A DNA stretch of 64,000 nt from the NCBI RefSeq assembly GCF_900659635.1, contig NZ_CAACVB010000014.1, forward strand, positions 1 through 64,000, given 5' to 3'. Origin of the DNA: Actinomadura roseirufa (GTDB lineage Bacteria; Actinomycetota; Actinomycetes; Streptosporangiales; Streptosporangiaceae). Position numbers and translations under genes: made by a program. Below, piece after piece: positions 19,973 through 32,578 of the stretch. The first letter of the stretch is position 1, and each line of letters opens with the position of its first letter. Below the pieces are notes generated by a model. That model made no database searches and was not told the DNA's origin. It saw only the letters and a program-made list of their open reading frames with translations.

Positions 19973-20022
19973 TGCGATGATTCCCGGTGGATCGGACGAC
20001 CGTCTCCACTCGGGGGGCCTCC

Positions 20023-21000
20023 ATGCCCGCGCACATCCGCGTCGCCTCGCGCACGACCATCTGCCTGCTCGCCGCCGCCATGGCTCCGGCCATGGCGGCG
20101 TGCAACGAAAGCTCCCGTGCGGGCGCCGACCCGCCCGCGCTGAGCAAGGAGCAGGCCCGGCAGGTGCTGGCGGGGTTCACCGCGGGTGCCAACCAGGCGG
20201 GCCACAGCCTCGACCGCAGGGCTCTGGCGGGTATCGAGGCAGAACCACAGCTGGCGATGGACACCGCGGCGTTCCGCCTCCGCCGCGCCATCCGGCAACG
20301 GCCGCCGCTGCTGGAGTTCGCCGAGCCCGTCTTCTACATCCCGAGGATGCACGGCTATCCGCACTGGTTCGCCGTGGACACCACCACCGGGTCGGGCGAG
20401 CAGCCGGTACGGCATGCTCTGCTGTTCACGCAGGCCAGGGCCGGTGGCCCGTGGCTGCTGGCGGCCGACCCGTATCCGGGGGAGGGGGCGCTGCGCAAGG
20501 TGAAACTGGACTCGGCGGGGTTCGCCGAGCCGGTGAGGCCGGACGCCAAGGATCTCGCTGTCTCGCCGGGTGGGCTCCCCGCCGCACACGCCGCGCTCCT
20601 GACGGACGGCCCGCACGCGCAGGGCGCTTCAGTGTTCGCGGAAGGATCGAAGACGAGCCAGACCTATGAGGCCCTGCGCCAAGGGGAACAGGCCTTGGCC
20701 AAGCGAGGAATCACCCTGTCCTCGCGGTTCTCGGCGACGCCGTACACGGTGTACGCGCTGCGTACCCAAGGGGGCGGGGCTCTTGTCTGGTATGTCGTTA
20801 AGCAGAACGAGGCGTACTCCAGCGTGAGGCGGGGCACGCTCGCTGTGAGCGGCGACCTCGTGGGGCTCGCCCGTGCGAGGGTCCCCAGGAACCGCCTGGA
20901 CACCACCGTCCTGGTGCAGTACCTGGCCGCCGTTCCGCCCAAGGGCCGGGCGACGGTCACCGGCATGTACCGGAAGGCCGTCTCCGTGTACGGCTCCTGA
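20023..21000 (+). CDS. Putative lipoprotein, paralogue of the one after prfB
   Basis: A 325-residue exported protein of unknown function. Residues 1-28 form a lipoprotein signal: a basic start (MPAHIRVASR), a hydrophobic core (TTICLLAAAMAPAM) and a lipobox-like AMAAC with Cys near residue 27. The mature part has FAEPVFYIPRMHGYPHWFAVD, HALLFTQARAGGPWLLAADPYP and a second half with TPYTVYALRTQGGGALVWYVVKQNE. The same layout (LYVPKI..FPQWFVA, RTALMAFMLRSP.RW, ATPYPYFAMRTDHGGGLVIYSLFRN) occurs in the lipoprotein at 22468, so the two are paralogues flanking prfB. I chose ATG 20023 to fit the signal peptide; the upstream extension is not coding-like. Confidence 0.75.
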   Translation: MPAHIRVASRTTICLLAAAMAPAMAACNESSRAGADPPALSKEQARQVLAGFTAGANQAGHSLDRRALAGIEAEPQLAMDTAAFRLRRAIRQRPPLLEFAEPVFYIPRMHGYPHWFAVDTTTGSGEQPVRHALLFTQARAGGPWLLAADPYPGEGALRKVKLDSAGFAEPVRPDAKDLAVSPGGLPAAHAALLTDGPHAQGASVFAEGSKTSQTYEALRQGEQALAKRGITLSSRFSATPYTVYALRTQGGGALVWYVVKQNEAYSSVRRGTLAVSGDLVGLARARVPRNRLDTTVLVQYLAAVPPKGRATVTGMYRKAVSVYGS

Positions 21001-21229: not shown

Positions 21230-22339
21230 TCAGGCGGTCTCCTGCTGGCGCATCCAGCGGATCTCGGCCTCGATGAACTCGTCGATCTCGCCGTCCAGCA
21301 CCGAGGCGGGGTTGCCGGCCTCGATGCCGGTGCGCAGGTCCTTGACGATCTGGTACGGGTGCAGCACGTAGTTGCGGATCTGCGTGCCCCAGCTGCTGGT
21401 GCCCTCGCCGCGCAGGGCGGACATCTTGTCCGCCTCCTCCTGCCGCTTGCGCTCCAGCAGCTTGGCCTGCAGCACGTTCATGGCCGTGGCCTTGTTCTGG
21501 AGCTGGCTGCGCTCGTTCTGGCAGGACACGACGATGCCGGTGGGGATGTGGGTGATGCGCACGGCGGAGTCGGTCGTGTTGACGCCCTGGCCGCCCGGCC
21601 CGGACGACCGGTACACGTCAATGCGGAGCTCGGTCTCGTCGATGTCGACGTGGTCGCTCTGCTCCACGACCGGCACCACGTCCAGCCCGGCGAACGACGT
21701 CTGCCGGCGGCCCTGGTTGTCGAACGGGGAGATCCGGACGAGCCGGTGGGTGCCGTGCTCGCCGCGCAGAGTCCCATAGGCGTAGGGGGCCTTCACGGTG
21801 AAGGTGGTGGACTTGATCCCCGCCTCTTCGGCGTAGGAGGTCTCGTAGACCTCCGTGGGGTAGCCGTGGCGCTCGGCCCAGCGCAGGTACATCCGCTGGA
21901 GCTGCTCGGCCCAGTCGGCGGCGTCGACGCCTCCGGCCTGCGCGTTGATGGTCACCAGCGCCTCGCGGGCGTCGTACTCGCCCGCCATGAGCGTGCGGAC
22001 CTCGAGCCGCTGGACGGCCTTGTGCAGCGAGGCCAGCTCCTCGTCGGCCTCCGCGAGCGTGTCGGCGTCGTCCATCTCCCGGGCCAGCTCGTACAGGGTG
22101 GCGACGTCGTCGTGCCGCTGGCGCAGGCCCTCGACCCGCCCCAGCTCGCTCTCCAGGTACGACAGGCGGCGCGTCACCGTCTGGGCGCGCTCCTGGTCGT
22201 TCCACAGGTCAGGGTCGGCCGACTGCTCCCGCAACTCGGCGATGTCGCGCCGCATGCCGTCGAGGTCCAGCACCTGCTCGATGCCGGTGAGCGCCGAGCC
22301 GAGCTCCTTGAGCTGCTCTTCGGGTTCGATACCTGCCAC
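21230..22339 (-). CDS. prfB: Peptide chain release factor 2
   Basis: RF2 recognises UAA and UGA stop codons and triggers peptide release. Its 369 residues are full length. The stop-codon-recognition tripeptide SPF is in [17 protein letters not shown], and the catalytic GGQ is in [20 protein letters not shown]. The start is GTG at 22337-22339 with no ribosome binding site, so translation may be leaderless. The frame is continuous, so there is no programmed +1 frameshift. It lies on the strand opposite to ftsE-ftsX-smpB, to which prfB is often adjacent in actinobacteria. Confidence 0.97.
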
Positions 22340-22467
22340 GGTTCGAGCTTATCGCCGTCCCGGAGTGCCCGAGCGTCCGGCCGACAGGCCGCGGATGGCA
22401 GAATCACGGATCTGGGAGGTCGATCGTCGGCGGTCGGCCTGATCGTCATGTGCCCGGGGGAGGGCCA

Positions 22468-23520
22468 GTGCGGAGGATCTCTGGCGCGGTCGCGGCCCTG
22501 GTGCTGCTCGTGCCGCCGCTCACGGTCGCGGGCTGCGCCGAGAGCAAGCCGGAGGCGAGGCCTTCGGGCATGCCGACGACGTCCCCGCCGGAACCGATCC
22601 CGCTCACCCCGCAGGTCGCGGAGAAGGCGTTCGCCACCTACGTGACGGACGAGGACGTGGCCAGGGCCGCGGGTGACGAGAGGCTCGCCCTGGCCTGGAC
22701 GTCCGATGGGCAGGCGCTCCTGACCGCGGCCGAGTTCCGCAAGGCGGCCTTCGACGGTGACCCTGTGCGCCGCTTCTCCTATGGCAAGCCCAAGCTGTAC
22801 GTGCCGAAAATCGAACCGGACAGATTTCCCCAATGGTTCGTGGCCTCGGTGTCACGGAGCGTCCAGGGGAAGGAGAAGAGCCAGCGTACGGCGCTGATGG
22901 CGTTCATGTTGCGCAGTCCGTCGGACCGCTGGCACGTCACCCTCACCACCCTGCTGGCGCCCAAGGCCAAGGAGCCGAAGGTCCTGATCGACCCTGAGGG
23001 TTATGTGACCGGGCTCGGTGCGGGCGAGAGGTCGATTCTGATCCGGCCCAGGGACGTGGGAGGCATCCAGGCGACCATCGCCGCCGAAGGCGAGGGCAGC
23101 GTCGCCGCCAAGGTCATGGGGTCCGGCCCCGTGACCACTGGCTACTACCAGGAGGCAAGACGCGCCAAGAGGAAGGCCAGGGACAAACACCTGATCCTCC
23201 AGGTCGTGTACACGGCGACGCCCTACCCCTACTTCGCGATGCGCACCGACCATGGCGGCGGCCTGGTGATCTACTCCCTGTTCCGCAACACGTCACTGGT
23301 CGCCAAGGATCCGCAGACTCCCAAGCCGGAGATCCCATCGGAGGCGGAGCACCTGCTGGACGGCACCGTCGAGGGCAACGAGGTCGACACGATGTCGATG
23401 CTGCACTTCGCCGCCTACGATCCGCCGCGGGCCAAGCAGGGCAAGCAGCCCAAGGCCGTGATAATCGCGGACGACGGGGCGGTGGCCAAGGCCGCGACCC
23501 CACCCCTCAAGAGGCCCTGA
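22468..23520 (+). CDS. Putative lipoprotein, paralogue of the one before prfB
   Basis: A 350-residue exported protein with a clear lipoprotein signal: VRRISGAVAALVLLVPPLTVAGC with Cys near residue 23. The mature protein contains KLYVPKIEPDRFPQWFVASV, RTALMAFMLRSPSDRWHVTLTT and YTATPYPYFAMRTDHGGGLVIYS, matching the paralogue at 20023. I prefer GTG 22468 because GGAGGG lies just before it; GTG 22450 would add six residues. It is divergent from prfB. Function unknown. Confidence 0.75.
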   Translation: MRRISGAVAALVLLVPPLTVAGCAESKPEARPSGMPTTSPPEPIPLTPQVAEKAFATYVTDEDVARAAGDERLALAWTSDGQALLTAAEFRKAAFDGDPVRRFSYGKPKLYVPKIEPDRFPQWFVASVSRSVQGKEKSQRTALMAFMLRSPSDRWHVTLTTLLAPKAKEPKVLIDPEGYVTGLGAGERSILIRPRDVGGIQATIAAEGEGSVAAKVMGSGPVTTGYYQEARRAKRKARDKHLILQVVYTATPYPYFAMRTDHGGGLVIYSLFRNTSLVAKDPQTPKPEIPSEAEHLLDGTVEGNEVDTMSMLHFAAYDPPRAKQGKQPKAVIIADDGAVAKAATPPLKRP

Positions 23521-24258: not shown

Positions 24259-24948
24259 GTGATCCATTTCGACAACGTCACCAAGGTCTACCCGAGCCAG
24301 AACCGGCCCGCCCTGCAGCATGTGAACGTCGCCATCGAGAAGGGCGAGTTCCTGTTCCTGGTGGGTCCCTCCGGCTCCGGTAAGTCGACCTTCCTGCGCC
24401 TCGTCCTCAAGGAGGAGCGTCCTTCCCAGGGTCACGTGCACGTGGCGGGCAAGGACCTGAGCAGGCTGAGCAACTGGAAGGTGCCGCACCTGCGCCGCAG
24501 GATCGGCTGCGTCTTCCAGGACTTCCGGCTGCTCCCCAACAAGAACGTCTTCGAGAACGTCGCCTTCGCCCTCGAGGTGATCGGCAAGCCGCGGCGGTTC
24601 ATCGGCAAGGTCGTGCCCGAGGTCATCGACCTCGTCGGCCTGGAGGGCAAGGCCCACCGGATGCCGGACGAGCTGTCCGGCGGCGAGCAGCAGCGCGTCG
24701 CCATCGCGCGGGCGTTCGTCAACCGGCCGATGATCCTGCTCGCCGACGAGCCGACGGGCAACATCGACCCCGCCACCTCCATCGGCATCATGAAGGTGCT
24801 GGACCGCATCAACCGGACCGGCACCACCGTCGTCATGGCCACCCACGACGCCGCGATCGTCGACGCGTTCCGTAAGCGCGTCGTCGAGCTGGAGGACGGC
24901 CGGGTCGTCCGCGACCAGTCGCGCGGCGTGTACGGCCAGGCCTACTGA
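24259..24948 (+). CDS. ftsE: Cell division ATP-binding protein FtsE
   Basis: The cytoplasmic ABC ATPase that works with FtsX at the divisome to control peptidoglycan hydrolases. It has 229 residues: Walker [10 protein letters not shown], signature LSGGEQQR, Walker [15 protein letters not shown] and the H-loop [11 protein letters not shown]. FtsE landmarks such as [12 protein letters not shown] at the start and [23 protein letters not shown] are present. The start is GTG 24259. ftsX follows after a 180-base gap. Confidence 0.96.
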
Positions 24949-25128
24949 CCATGATCCCGGGCGTCGCTCCCGGGCCCCTCCGCAGCACTTCCATCTGAAC
25001 CATCGATTCTTGCCGGGGCGTACGACACCCCAGACGTGACACCACAGGCGTACGCCCGCACAGGGCCCGCGCGTCCGGCGCGGCGCCCACGCTTCCGGCG
25101 GGACACAGGCGATCAAGGACAGCGAGGC

Positions 25129-26034
25129 ATGCGCGCACAGTTCGTTCTCCAGGAGATCTGGATCGGTCTCCGCCGGAACCTGACGATGACGATCTCTCTC
25201 GTCATCACCGTCGCCATCGCCATGGCGCTCTTCGGCACCGGCCTGCTCCTGCGCAGCCAGGTGGACTCCTCCAAGAGCTACTGGTACGACAAGATCGAGG
25301 TCTCGATCTTCCTGTGCGCCAAGACGAGCTCCAACAACAGCTGCCAGAAGCAGGACGTGACCCCGCAGGACCGGGACGCGCTCGGCGAGATGCTGAAGAA
25401 GATGCCGCAGGTCGCGAACGTCCAGTACGAGACCCAGCAGCAGGCGTACGCCCGCTTCAAGGAGCGCTTCTCCGGTTCGCCCGGGTTCGTGGAGAGCACC
25501 CGCCAGGACGACATCCCCCCCTCCTTCCGGGTGAAGCTGAAGAACCCGGAGGAGTACAAGACGGTCTCCCAGGCGGTGCTCGGCCACAAGGGCGTCGACA
25601 CGGTCATCAACGAGCAGGAGATCCTGAAGAAGTTCTTCCGGATCCTCAACGGACTGCAGGTCGCCGCGCTGCTCATCGCCCTGATCCAGGTGGTGGCCGC
25701 GGTGCTGCTGGTCGGCAACACCGTCCGGCTGTCGGCGTTCAACAGGCGCCGGGAGACGGGCATCATGCGGCTGGTCGGCGCGTCCAACACCTATATCCAG
25801 ATGCCCTTCATCTTGGAGGGCGCCATCGCGGGCCTGATCGGCGGCCTGTTCGCCTCGGTGCTGCTGGTGTTCAGCAAGATGTTCCTCGTCGACCGCCTGG
25901 CGGGCGACGTGCAGCTCGTCAGCCGGCTGGGCTGGAGCACGGTGATCGCGGTCATCGTCGTGTCCATCTGCTTCGGCGTGCTGCTGTGCGCGATCGCCTC
26001 GTTCCTCACCCTGCGCAGATATCTCAAGATCTGA
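25129..26034 (+). CDS. ftsX: Cell division protein FtsX
   Basis: The integral membrane partner of FtsE, which passes the ATPase signal to extracytoplasmic cell-wall hydrolase activators. It has 301 residues: one N-terminal transmembrane helix ([23 protein letters not shown]), a large outside domain of about 150 residues containing two cysteines ([13 protein letters not shown]), then three C-terminal membrane helices with the FtsX/MacB-type signature [15 protein letters not shown] start at ATG 25129, which follows AAGGACAGCGAGG; the open frame extends upstream but without coding character. Confidence 0.95.
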
Positions 26035-26155: not shown

Positions 26156-26629
26156 GTGCCACGCGACACAGGGCGCAAGCTCATCGCCCAGAACAAGCGT
26201 GCCCGCTACGACTACCACATCGACGACACCTGGGAAGCGGGCATGGTGCTCATGGGCACCGAGGTGAAGGCGCTGCGTGCCGGGCGCGCCTCGCTCGTCG
26301 ACGGGTACGCCCACGTGATGGACGGTGAGGTGTGGCTGGAACACGTCCACATCCCCGAGTACACGCAGGGCACCTGGACGAACCACGCCCCCAGGCGGCG
26401 GCGCAAGCTGCTGCTGCACAGACGCGAGATACAGAAAATCATCGCGAAGTCATCTGAACCGGGTTGGACGCTGGTACCCCTGTCGCTGTACTTCAAGGAC
26501 GGCAAGGCCAAAATAGAGATCGGCTTGGCCCGTGGTAAGAAGTCCTACGACAAGCGCCAGGCCATCGCCAAGCGGGAAGCCGACCGTGAAATGCAGAAGG
26601 CGGCGGCGGCCCGGTTCAGGAGACGGTGA
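26156..26629 (+). CDS. smpB: SsrA-binding protein SmpB
   Basis: SmpB binds tmRNA and brings it to stalled ribosomes for trans-translation. Its 157 residues carry the OB-fold landmarks: [43 protein letters not shown] and [21 protein letters not shown]. The basic C-terminal tail ends [19 protein letters not shown]. The start is GTG 26156. Its RNA partner ssrA lies 2.3 kb downstream on the same strand, with only the PBP-like gene between. Confidence 0.97.
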
Positions 26630-26632
26630 AGG

Positions 26633-28606
26633 GTGTCGATGACCAACCGAGGTCGGAGGCGGGCCCCGCGCGGGTCCCGTACAGCGTCGCGACGGGTGGT
26701 CTCGGTGGCGACCTGCGGTGCGCTCGTCGCGTCCCTGACGACGGGATGCTGGGCCGAGCCGTCGGCGATGCCCGCCGTCCGTGACTTCCTGATCGCCTGG
26801 CAGGTCGGCAACTATCCGGCGGCGGCGAAGAAGACCGTCGGCGCCGACCGCAAGCAGGTCGAGTCCGCGCTCGGCCAGGTCCGCGCCCAGCTGGACGCGG
26901 CGTCGCTGCGGCTCGCGCTCGGCGTCCCCACCGAGGGGGACACCAAGGTCAAGGCGATCCGCAAGACCGGCGACGACGCGACGGCGAGCTTCTCGGTGAA
27001 GGTCGACCTCGGTGAGAACGGCCAGCCCTGGACCTACAAGGGCTCCATGCGCCTGCGCCGCGAGGGCGGCAAGTGGAAGGTCGTCTGGGACCCCTCGATC
27101 ATCAACCCGGCGTTGAAGCCGGGACAGCGGCTCGCGGTGAAGACCACGGTGCCGCCGCGCGCCCTGATCAAGGACGGCGCCGGCCGCTCGCTGCTGCGCG
27201 AGGTGAGCGTCTACGCGGTGGGCGTGTACCCCGGGCACCTCGCCGACACCCAGCGCACGCTGGACGGGCTGGCCAAGCAGGTCAAGCTCGGCATCGGCCA
27301 GCGGCTCGACACCGAGCGGCTGCTCGGACGCGTCCGCTCGGCGCCGCCCCAGGAGTTCCTGCCACTGATGACCCTGGAGGCCGGCGAGCACCAGGCGTTG
27401 CTCACCCGGCTGAACCAGGTCCCGGGCCTGAAGTTCATGAAGCTGCCCAGGGTTCCCATCCAGCCGAAGGCCGCGCCGGAGCTGGTCGGCGGTCTCGGCC
27501 CCGCCACCGCCGACCGGCTTCAGCAGGTCGGCGCCCCCTACCAGCCGGGCGACACCATCGGCGTCAACGGCATCCAGCTCCTGCAGCAGCGCCGCCTGGC
27601 CGGGACGCCGACCGTGAAGGTCGTGGCGCAGGACCCCGCCGGGCGCGTCTCCCAGGAGCTGGCCGGCTGGGAGGGGCAGCAGCCGCAGGAGGTCGACACC
27701 ACCCTCGACGCCTCCTTCCAGGTCCGGGCGGACAAGGCGCTCGCCGGGCTGACCGTGCCGGCGTCCCTCGTGGCGGTGCGGCCCAGCACCGGCGAGGTGA
27801 TCGCGGTGGCCAACCACGGGACGGGCGGCAAGAACCTGGCCTTCGAGGCCGAGTACCCCCCCGGGATGACGTTCGGGATCGTGTCCGCCGAGGCACTGAT
27901 CTCCAAGGCCGGGCTCAACCAGGCCAGCCCGACCACGTGCCCCGGCACGATCACCGTCGGCGGCCGGACCTTCACCAGCAAGGCCCGCGCCGAAGGGAAC
28001 TTCGCCACGCACTTCGGCTTCGCCTGTCAGACGACCTTCGCGCAGCTCAGCGGCAAGCTGGACGTGCCGACCCTGATGACGGAGGCGGCGGGGCTGGGTC
28101 TGGGCAAGGACTGGGGGCTGTCGGTTCCCGCCTTCACCGGCTCGATCCCCAAGCCCGCCAACGACGCGGAGAAGGCCGCGATCATGGTCGGCGAGGGCGG
28201 GGTCCGGGTGAGTCCCCTCGCCATGGCGATGGTGGCCGGCGCCGCCCGGTACGGCACGTGGAGGGCCCCCTACGTCCTCAAGGGCCTCACCGACCCCTCC
28301 CTCACCCCGCCCGCGCAGAACCTCCCGCGCGAGACCATCTCGAGCCTGCGGGCCCTCACGACGCAGTCGATGAGGTCCCTCCTCGCCAAGGACGCGCGCG
28401 TCTCCAACGACGTCACCGGCATCGCCGCCGTCCCGACGTACAAGGACAAGGACCGGGAACGGGTCGTGTCGTGGTTCGTCGGCTCCCGGGGCGACCTCGC
28501 CTTCGCGGTGGCCATCGAGGGCAAGGTCTACGCCTCCCGCGTCGCCAGGACGTTCCTCAGCCGCACCCCGCCCGTCGCCACTACCACGAAGCAGAACCCT
28601 CGCTAA
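26633..28606 (+). CDS. Penicillin-binding-protein-like lipoprotein lacking all catalytic motifs
   Basis: A 657-residue exported protein with class B PBP architecture. The signal ends in ASLTTGC (lipobox). An NTF2-like MecA N-terminal domain covers about residues 40-160, a PBP dimerisation domain about 160-350, and a transpeptidase-like domain about 365-650. The active-site Ser-x-x-Lys is replaced: PPGMTFG has Met412 and Gly415 where PPGSTFK is expected. Ser-x-Asn is ACQ at 464-466 and Lys-Thr-Gly is VTG at 594-596. The fold is otherwise well kept (TTLDASFQVRADKALAGL), so this is a pseudoenzyme rather than a decaying gene. It starts three bases after smpB. GTG 26633 or ATG 26639 are both possible starts. 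Confidence 0.85.
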   Translation: MSMTNRGRRRAPRGSRTASRRVVSVATCGALVASLTTGCWAEPSAMPAVRDFLIAWQVGNYPAAAKKTVGADRKQVESALGQVRAQLDAASLRLALGVPTEGDTKVKAIRKTGDDATASFSVKVDLGENGQPWTYKGSMRLRREGGKWKVVWDPSIINPALKPGQRLAVKTTVPPRALIKDGAGRSLLREVSVYAVGVYPGHLADTQRTLDGLAKQVKLGIGQRLDTERLLGRVRSAPPQEFLPLMTLEAGEHQALLTRLNQVPGLKFMKLPRVPIQPKAAPELVGGLGPATADRLQQVGAPYQPGDTIGVNGIQLLQQRRLAGTPTVKVVAQDPAGRVSQELAGWEGQQPQEVDTTLDASFQVRADKALAGLTVPASLVAVRPSTGEVIAVANHGTGGKNLAFEAEYPPGMTFGIVSAEALISKAGLNQASPTTCPGTITVGGRTFTSKARAEGNFATHFGFACQTTFAQLSGKLDVPTLMTEAAGLGLGKDWGLSVPAFTGSIPKPANDAEKAAIMVGEGGVRVSPLAMAMVAGAARYGTWRAPYVLKGLTDPSLTPPAQNLPRETISSLRALTTQSMRSLLAKDARVSNDVTGIAAVPTYKDKDRERVVSWFVGSRGDLAFAVAIEGKVYASRVARTFLSRTPPVATTTKQNPR

Positions 28607-28915: not shown

Positions 28916-29285
28916 GGGGGTGACCGGCTTCGACTTCGGTCGATCGAGCCAGGGGAAGCGGGTCGAGGGTGGTCGTCGTGACCTCGTAAATCCTGTGACG
29001 GCAAACCACAACTGCCAACAAGAAGCAGTCCGAGTTCGCTCTCGCCGCCTGAGGCGAGTAGCGAACTCTGTCAGCCCGGGAGCGTCTCCGACCCGGGGTC
29101 TGGCATCGTAAGGAGACTCCACCTGCAAGCCCGGTCGCGGGGCGTGTAGGGAAAACAAACAGCGGCTGAGCCTGTCGGCGACTTGCCTGCGTGAGCGCCG
29201 GGGCTGAGAAAGCGACTAGCAGGCTGCACCCGGAGAAGCCCTGACTCATTACCGAAGGACGCGGGTTCGATTCCCGCCACCTCCA
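28916..29285 (+). ncRNA. ssrA: Transfer-messenger RNA (tmRNA)
   Basis: tmRNA rescues stalled ribosomes with SmpB. The 5' end GGGGGTGACCGGCTTCGACT and 3' end GGTTCGATTCCCGCCACCTC form the tRNA-like domain: acceptor GGGGGTG pairs with CACCTCC, with a T-arm before it and discriminator A at 29285. The terminal CCA is not encoded (CGA follows). The tag frame is 29014-29052, reading ANKKQSEFALAA then TGA, closely like the tags of related actinobacteria and ending in the degradation signal ALAA. A pseudoknot-rich region follows the tag. Confidence 0.96.
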
Positions 29286-29291
29286 CGACAC

Positions 29292-31694: not shown

Positions 31695-32291
31695 CTATTT
31701 CACCACTCTTGCCCACCAGCGTTGGCTGCCATGATTGTTGCAGGTCCATTGAACGAGCTTCACGCCGTTTCGCCTGCTCTGCTGGGCGATGTCCAGGCAC
31801 ATCGGCCTTCCATTCTGGAGGCTGTGGACGCTGTAGATCTGGTAGTGGCCGTGGCCGAGATTCCTGAGTCGCCAGAGGCTGTTCGCCTTTTCGTTGCACG
31901 ACCACTGAACGATCCGTGCGCCCTTCTTGAGCGAGTTGTGCTCCACGTTCATGCAGCGACCGCTGTTCAGGTTGACGAGATGAATGAAGCCGCTCCGATG
32001 GGTTCTGCTGAGGTACCAGTACTCGTTCTTCTGGTAGCTGCAGGCCCACTGGTCCAGGGCGACGCCGTTCTTGGTGCTCCATCCGGGAACCTCGGCGCAG
32101 ATCCCGGAATAGCCGTTCACCAGCCAGTAGTAGGGGATCATCTTCGCCGGTCCGGTCGTGCCGGAAGGCGGCTTGGCCGATGAGACCGGACGGGCGTCCG
32201 CCATCGCCGTTCCGGTTCCGGAGACCCCGCACAGTGCGGCGCCGAGGATTGCCGCGGCGATCGCCGACGTCAGCATCTTGTTTGATCGCAT
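31695..32291 (-). CDS. Secreted ricin B-type lectin
   Basis: A 198-residue exported beta-trefoil protein. The signal peptide is MRSNKMLTSAIAAAILGAAL, continuing to cleavage near TAMADA. The mature part shows three QxW-type subdomains: GVALDQWACSYQKNEYW, GARIVQWSCNEKANSLW and GVKLVQWTCNNHGSQRWW, each followed by a carbohydrate-site pattern such as NLNSGRCMNVEH. It probably binds galactose-type or other glycans outside the cell; there is no attached enzyme domain. ATG 32291 is preceded by GGGGAAC. It is divergent from the sigma-factor gene. Confidence 0.85.
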   Translation of the reverse strand: MRSNKMLTSAIAAAILGAALCGVSGTGTAMADARPVSSAKPPSGTTGPAKMIPYYWLVNGYSGICAEVPGWSTKNGVALDQWACSYQKNEYWYLSRTHRSGFIHLVNLNSGRCMNVEHNSLKKGARIVQWSCNEKANSLWRLRNLGHGHYQIYSVHSLQNGRPMCLDIAQQSRRNGVKLVQWTCNNHGSQRWWARVVK

Positions 32292-32578
32292 GATCTGTTC
32301 CCCGCTCACTTCGTGCCAGATTTCGGTGCGGCCGGACGGAAGGGCCACCTGCGCCCGATTGGACACTCCCCGTATCAGGGCGTGAGGTTCTCCGGCCATC
32401 CGTCTCGGTGAGATCGATCAAGTAAGTGTTCTCCACGATGGTCGCCCACCGTGTCGCGTCAGTAGGTTGCCATCACCCCCTTTCGGCCATCACTTGTCTC
32501 TTCCATATACACGCGGCGCCGCGGTCGTTGCGCTGCACCTCGAACCAAGATCCTTTATGACGCCAGTGGAGGTGCCCC

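Follow-up and report, generated by a model that had tools for sequence, protein, structure and literature searches.

The window, a stretch of 64,000 nucleotides from Actinomadura roseirufa, carries in succession ftsE, ftsX, smpB, a gene related to those for class B penicillin-binding proteins (PBPs), and the tmRNA gene (Table 1). The protein encoded by the fourth of these has the domains of a transpeptidase but none of its catalytic motifs, and is referred to here as the pseudo-transpeptidase. Its start codon lies 3 nt beyond the smpB stop (26627-26629), and the gene is probably co-expressed with smpB. Its third-position GC content (GC3) is 0.96 and that of four other window genes 0.85-0.96, in agreement with the normal codon use noted in an earlier, sequence-only reading of this DNA.

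Table 1. Features of the pseudo-transpeptidase locus, in window coordinates
Feature	Position	Strand	Remarks
ftsE	24259..24948	+	ABC_tran match; name given from adjacency to ftsX
ftsX	25036..26034	+	profile match; start codon uncertain
smpB	26156..26629	+	immediately upstream of the pseudo-transpeptidase gene; adjoins it in relatives too
Shine-Dalgarno-like AGGAGA	26618..26623	+	inside smpB 3' end (AGGAG = 26618-26622)
pseudo-transpeptidase gene (dead MecA_N-type class B PBP)	26633..28606	+	GTG start, stop ends at 28606, 657 aa
Cys39, candidate lipidation site	26747..26749	+	lipobox TTGC, imperfect at -3
MecA_N (NTF2-like) domain	26765..27127	+	residues 45-165, Pfam
PBP_dimer (pedestal) domain	27146..27658	+	residues 172-342, Pfam
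pedestal "head" segment	27206..27466	+	residues ~192-278; present in the dead protein, absent from closest intact paralogues
Transpeptidase domain, motifs lost	27764..28528	+	residues 378-632, Pfam
SxxK site, now M412-T-F-G415	27866..27877	+	alignment
Cys436	27938..27940	+	conserved in dead and intact members
SxN site, now A464-C-Q466	28022..28030	+	alignment
Cys465	28025..28027	+	possible disulfide partner of Cys436
true KTG column, now I597-A598-A599	28421..28429	+	alignment
tmRNA gene (ssrA)	28916..29286	+	immediately downstream of the pseudo-transpeptidase gene

The arrangement is conserved. Among 72 named relatives, smpB is present at all 72 loci and ftsX at 70, and the tmRNA gene lies downstream at 69, one of the remaining three having only ~560 nt of downstream sequence. 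The median distance from the smpB stop to the start codon is 4 nt, and the stop lies no more than 60 nt ahead of the chosen start at 71 of the 72 loci; these starts were set by a script, which placed two of them clearly too far upstream. Extra sequence separates ftsX from smpB at 48 of 70 named loci but not in the window, and in both gaps that were examined (L203, 3881-5326; L180, 4090-5451) it appears, by sequence reading, to encode an S41/PDZ carboxy-terminal protease. Elsewhere in the window, two lipoprotein-like open reading frames (19987-21000 and 22450-23520) flank a prfB-like frame on the minus strand (21230-22339); their C-terminal parts look alike by eye, and they are possible paralogues. 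A secreted protein with repeated QxW-like motifs, by eye a ricin-type lectin domain, is encoded on the minus strand at 31695-32399.

The MecA_N, PBP_dimer and Transpeptidase matches of the pseudo-transpeptidase all exceed the Pfam gathering cut-offs, which bears out the earlier claim that the MecA_N domain and the overall domain remain. That claim had extended to the signal and lipobox, and here it stands in part: the N-terminus has a hydrophobic stretch followed by a lipobox, which is present but which we take to be imperfect at position -3 relative to the consensus. Within the aligned stretch 31-44, a Cys is found in 44 of 59 copies from the window's family and is absent from the other 15 (L059, L062, L064, L066, L069, L143, L163, L164 and L166-L172), in which an uncleaved N-terminal helix would perhaps serve as the anchor. 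The pseudo-transpeptidase may be membrane-tethered, although its anchor is not the same in all copies.

A class B PBP fold is confidently predicted by AlphaFold2 (window protein aligned with 58 named relatives), with a mean pLDDT of 89.2 and values of ~94-98 per ten-residue block across most of the transpeptidase domain. The best Foldseek matches of this model are full-length B. subtilis PBP3 (E 1e-35, TMq 0.62, 670 columns) and PBP2a, with E. faecium PBP5 further down. A VIA structure comparison gave Z 37.7 and an rmsd of 2.9 Å over 352 residues aligned within 171-647, barely covering the N-terminal domain; as VIA matches mostly span residues 167-648, the N-terminal fold rests on Pfam, AlphaFold2 and the full-length Foldseek matches. 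By Pfam/NCBIfam and structure search, the MecA_N class B PBPs, namely PBP2a (MecA), E. faecium PBP5 and B. subtilis PBP3, share the domain order and fold of the window protein, and whole-chain identity to proteins of this group is 16-18% among the listed Foldseek matches. All three of these enzymes carry the catalytic motifs, whereas the window protein lacks every one. For B. subtilis PBP3, the motifs are also described in the literature.

The loss was examined in an alignment of 212 rows, 185 dead and 27 intact, in which some genomes are counted twice. It confirmed that MTFG stands in place of SxxK and ACQ in place of SxN, as the sequence-only reading had it. That reading was also right that KTG is gone, but it had placed VTG in that position: V594-T-G596 (28412-28420) aligns with the VxG that comes just before KTG in intact relatives, which read VxG-KTG-T, and the true column is I597-A598-A599. 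The dead rows have Gly, Ser, Thr, Gln or Ala where SxxK has its Lys, and Val, Gln, Ile, Thr, Leu or Met at the Lys of KTG. In one genus (g46; L121, L123, L125, L126 and L128), Val replaces the Thr that follows the SxN motif, and in two of its five copies the Asn of SxN is present but its Ser is not. The window protein does not have the acylatable Ser with a Lys partner that would mark a BlaR/MecR-like beta-lactam sensor, and enzymatic activity is probably absent from it. Two cysteines lie outside this pattern of loss, with Cys465 kept in 185 of 185 dead rows, Cys436 in 183 of 185, and neither missing from any of the 27 intact rows; their retention in dead and intact proteins alike suggests a structural disulfide.

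The loss is found throughout the family. A relative was found in 60 of the 60 genus genomes searched, counting the window's own. The family, to which Actinomadura belongs, was sampled with 61 genomes from 60 genera. A full-length copy is present in 59 of the 61 genomes, and not one has either catalytic lysine (Lys in 0 of 59 at the SxxK column and in 0 of 59 at the KTG column), a pattern that chance does not explain. The Asn of SxN occurs in a single copy, which lacks the Ser, while the SxxK Ser is kept in 5 of the 59 copies and the SxN Ser in 12; Cys436, Cys465 and Trp614 are kept in all 59. In one genome (G114) the contig ends ~200 nt past smpB with the gene start visible, and in another (G098) the gene is split across two contigs, its C-terminal half being dead. 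Named carriers include species of Actinomadura, Actinoallomurus, Thermomonospora, Spirillospora and Actinocorallia together with several metagenome-assembled genomes, and the closest to the window is that of Actinomadura macra, at 70% identity. Reading frames of 610-709 residues are open at all 72 named loci, and no internal stop was seen in the 78 loci read out, the stops that were met lying at the very ends, where reading had continued past the gene. The orthologue comparison that had been proposed as a check for fixed motif loss therefore supports it.

Intact copies nonetheless exist outside the family. In another family of the order (f3), all three genomes, which belong to one genus (G120, G122 and G123), have a copy with STFK, SCNT and KTGT behind ftsE-ftsX-smpB, and intact copies occupy the same locus in two genomes from two other families of the class, G311 and G367, the latter with a longer ftsX-smpB gap. 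None of the other 22 intact rows, one of them a paralogue from the window's own genome, had smpB in the flanks scanned. The sole genome of family f2 (G119) has a dead copy that retains the SxxK Ser. Homologues in family f6, which we take to be mycobacteria, keep SxxK and SxN by a pattern search, which did not pick up KTG, and branch outside the dead clade. That clade is recovered in both trees: 40 of 40 dead rows group together with an SH-aLRT of 100 in a 59-row tree, in which odd letter composition was flagged in ten rows and the chosen outgroup did not form one side of a branch, and 17 of 17 group together with support of 100/100 in a more careful 38-row tree, with three rows so flagged. A single clade of dead and intact f3 copies is neither supported nor rejected (AU p = 0.287, 38-row tree), and orthology of the f3 copies with the dead clade rests mainly on gene order. 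The presence of intact copies at the same locus in f3, G311 and G367 indicates an old loss. A single loss of the key residues before the family radiated is the simplest account; the two catalytic lysines (of SxxK and KTG) and the SxN Asn would then have disappeared in an ancestor shared by the window's family and the f2 lineage. The sequence-only reading had held that intact orthologues would make this a recent pseudogene; such orthologues do exist, but in the window's own family the loss goes back to the ancestor.

The gene remains under purifying selection. In 18 of 18 disjoint close pairs of named relatives, dN/dS (NG86) is below 1, ranging from 0.18 to 0.66 with a median of 0.32. The corresponding medians are 0.19 for ftsX, 0.13 for smpB (17 pairs) and about 0 for ftsE, so the pseudo-transpeptidase gene evolves faster than its neighbours; NG86 probably underestimates dS at such GC3, and the values would then lean high. 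To see where selection acts, dead proteins and intact paralogues were taken from the same 39 genera and compared by mean pairwise identity over 741 genus pairs. The MecA_N domain is more conserved in the dead proteins (0.523 vs 0.426; higher in 673 of 741 pairs), whereas the pedestal (0.420 vs 0.498) and above all the transpeptidase domain (0.447 vs 0.578; higher in 1 of 741 pairs) are less so. The deficit extends to the former active site, where identity is 0.388 vs 0.789 in the KTG segment and 0.486 vs 0.667 in the SxxK segment. As the 741 pairs are not independent, the comparison was repeated with 60 random draws of 19 disjoint pairs, in which the dead proteins exceeded the intact ones in 90% of pairs on average for MecA_N and in 0% for the transpeptidase domain. 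A first comparison, made against the 27 intact rows, had pointed the same way for both domains. The control may mix paralogue groups, although the mean identity of every paralogue to the rest is 48% or more. Judged by these identities, conservation has moved away from the active site and risen in MecA_N, and since the transpeptidase domain and pedestal are less conserved than in intact paralogues, they may in part be structural ballast.

The intact paralogues differ from the dead proteins in the pedestal as well as in the motifs. Within the genome of the window, 10 of 11 other PBP-type loci show SxxK and KTG by pattern; in the remaining one (L001), SxN and KTG were recognized, but the pattern used did not catch SxxK. 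In the 39 genera compared, the interval from R176 to G286 measures 25-29 residues in 39 of 39 intact paralogues vs 102-106 in the dead proteins, so that the paralogues are without ~78 pedestal residues. An intact paralogue in which this interval measures 16-29 residues occurs in sixteen further genomes of the family sample (presence of MecA_N not confirmed for every one), which brings the shortened form to 55 of 61 genomes, and it also occurs in G119 of family f2 (26 residues). In the three f3 genomes, a single protein encoded at the smpB locus carries both the head (106 residues) and the motifs, and a search for a shortened paralogue of this type found none. One reading of this distribution is that the dead full-length protein, supplying N-terminal and pedestal-head functions, and the head-less intact paralogue, supplying catalysis, make up one unit, in which case two proteins would have replaced the single full-length enzyme that f3 still has at the smpB locus. 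We consider such a division of one enzyme into two quite improbable. Families f5, f59 and f62, in which the search found no full-length dead protein, have shortened intact PBPs too; two genomes of the family sample (G073 and G091) have an intact paralogue with the full head (107 residues); and among the matches from three others (G094, G095 and G113) none was noted as an intact MecA_N paralogue, G083 lying outside this search. The idea that the dead protein pairs exclusively with a head-less intact paralogue, considered separately, did not hold, given the head-less PBPs of f5, f59 and f62 and the full-head paralogues of G073 and G091.

A sensory role would also account for a PBP fold retained without chemistry, the dead pocket or the cleft between MecA_N and the pedestal binding muropeptide, lipid II or a beta-lactam and reporting to a partner. 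The corresponding cleft in PBP2a binds peptidoglycan allosterically, the nearest folds include PBP2a entries whose titles mention a peptidoglycan analogue and muramic acid at an allosteric site, and the raised conservation of MecA_N fits the same idea. Sensing is nevertheless unlikely: covalent sensing would require both Ser and Lys, the residues at the catalytic positions vary, and the pocket segments are those in which conservation fell. The binding of beta-lactams or muropeptides at the dead site, as the sequence-only reading had suggested, is accordingly not supported, the KTG and SxxK segments having lost conservation and MecA_N having gained it. Survival of enzymatic activity in a rearranged active site is highly improbable, for although Ser412 persists in 8 of the 185 dead rows, with Thr (37) or Glu (14) in others, no one substitute residue is common to the dead clade at the three motif positions. 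Relaxation of the transpeptidase domain relative to intact paralogues is what a decaying pseudogene might display, but the open frames, the absence of internal stops, the retention of the gene across the family sample and dN/dS below 1 in every pair leave that reading next to no probability, and they rule out a pseudogene of recent origin.

The explanation that we favor, at a probability of about 0.62, is that the pseudo-transpeptidase is an ancient pseudoenzyme kept as a membrane-tethered, non-catalytic protein that serves peptidoglycan synthesis at the septum or tip as a scaffold or regulator. Its ancestor would have been a MecA_N-type class B PBP encoded behind ftsEX-smpB. Catalysis would have passed to other PBPs, with intact paralogues doing the cross-linking, and the copy behind smpB would have been retained for its extracytoplasmic N-terminal module, which would hold or regulate partners in septal or tip wall synthesis. 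The protein would thus act outside the cytoplasmic membrane through the MecA_N domain and the full pedestal. The family-wide loss, the purifying selection and the conserved fold and locus lend strong support to the earlier proposal of a PBP pseudoenzyme whose role is non-catalytic, and a scaffold is the role that we infer. Position suggests FtsEX as a partner, and a link to FtsX is attractive on gene order; that order, however, is older than the loss of catalysis, and because the adjacency was inherited from a locus that predates the loss, it says little about a function with FtsEX. No hydrolase or LytM-type domain, such as would mark an EnvC/PcsB/RipC-like FtsEX effector, was found among the Pfam matches.

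LytM factors such as DipM are unrelated to PBPs in fold and chemistry. The likeness lies in the dead cell-wall-enzyme domain: LytM-factor pseudoenzymes such as DipM have one and regulate living autolysins (PMC10336132). Closer to the present case is the inactive S309A form of B. subtilis PBP 2B, which is described as fulfilling a structural role in division while another PBP supplies activity (PMC5656894). The example establishes that the need for a class B PBP may be structural rather than catalytic, but S309A is an engineered point mutant, whereas the window protein belongs to a natural and fixed lineage. PBP-lipo of M. abscessus (MAB_3167c), a predicted lipoprotein PBP that is septal and whose depletion yields long, branched and multi-septate cells, is presented as a septal-synthesis PBP, and the sections available do not describe it as dead (PMC9170245). 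Streptomyces PBPs reported without SxxK are class A proteins with the other motifs mostly conserved, and no conserved lineage or locus is described for them in the excerpt consulted (PMC6273383). No natural lineage of class B PBPs that has lost all three motifs and yet been kept was found in the open-access PMC literature searched.

A dead class B PBP is thus found in every sampled genus of the family, and intact copies at the same locus elsewhere provide ready controls. Together they make an old question testable, that of what class B PBPs do besides catalysis and through which part of the protein they do it.
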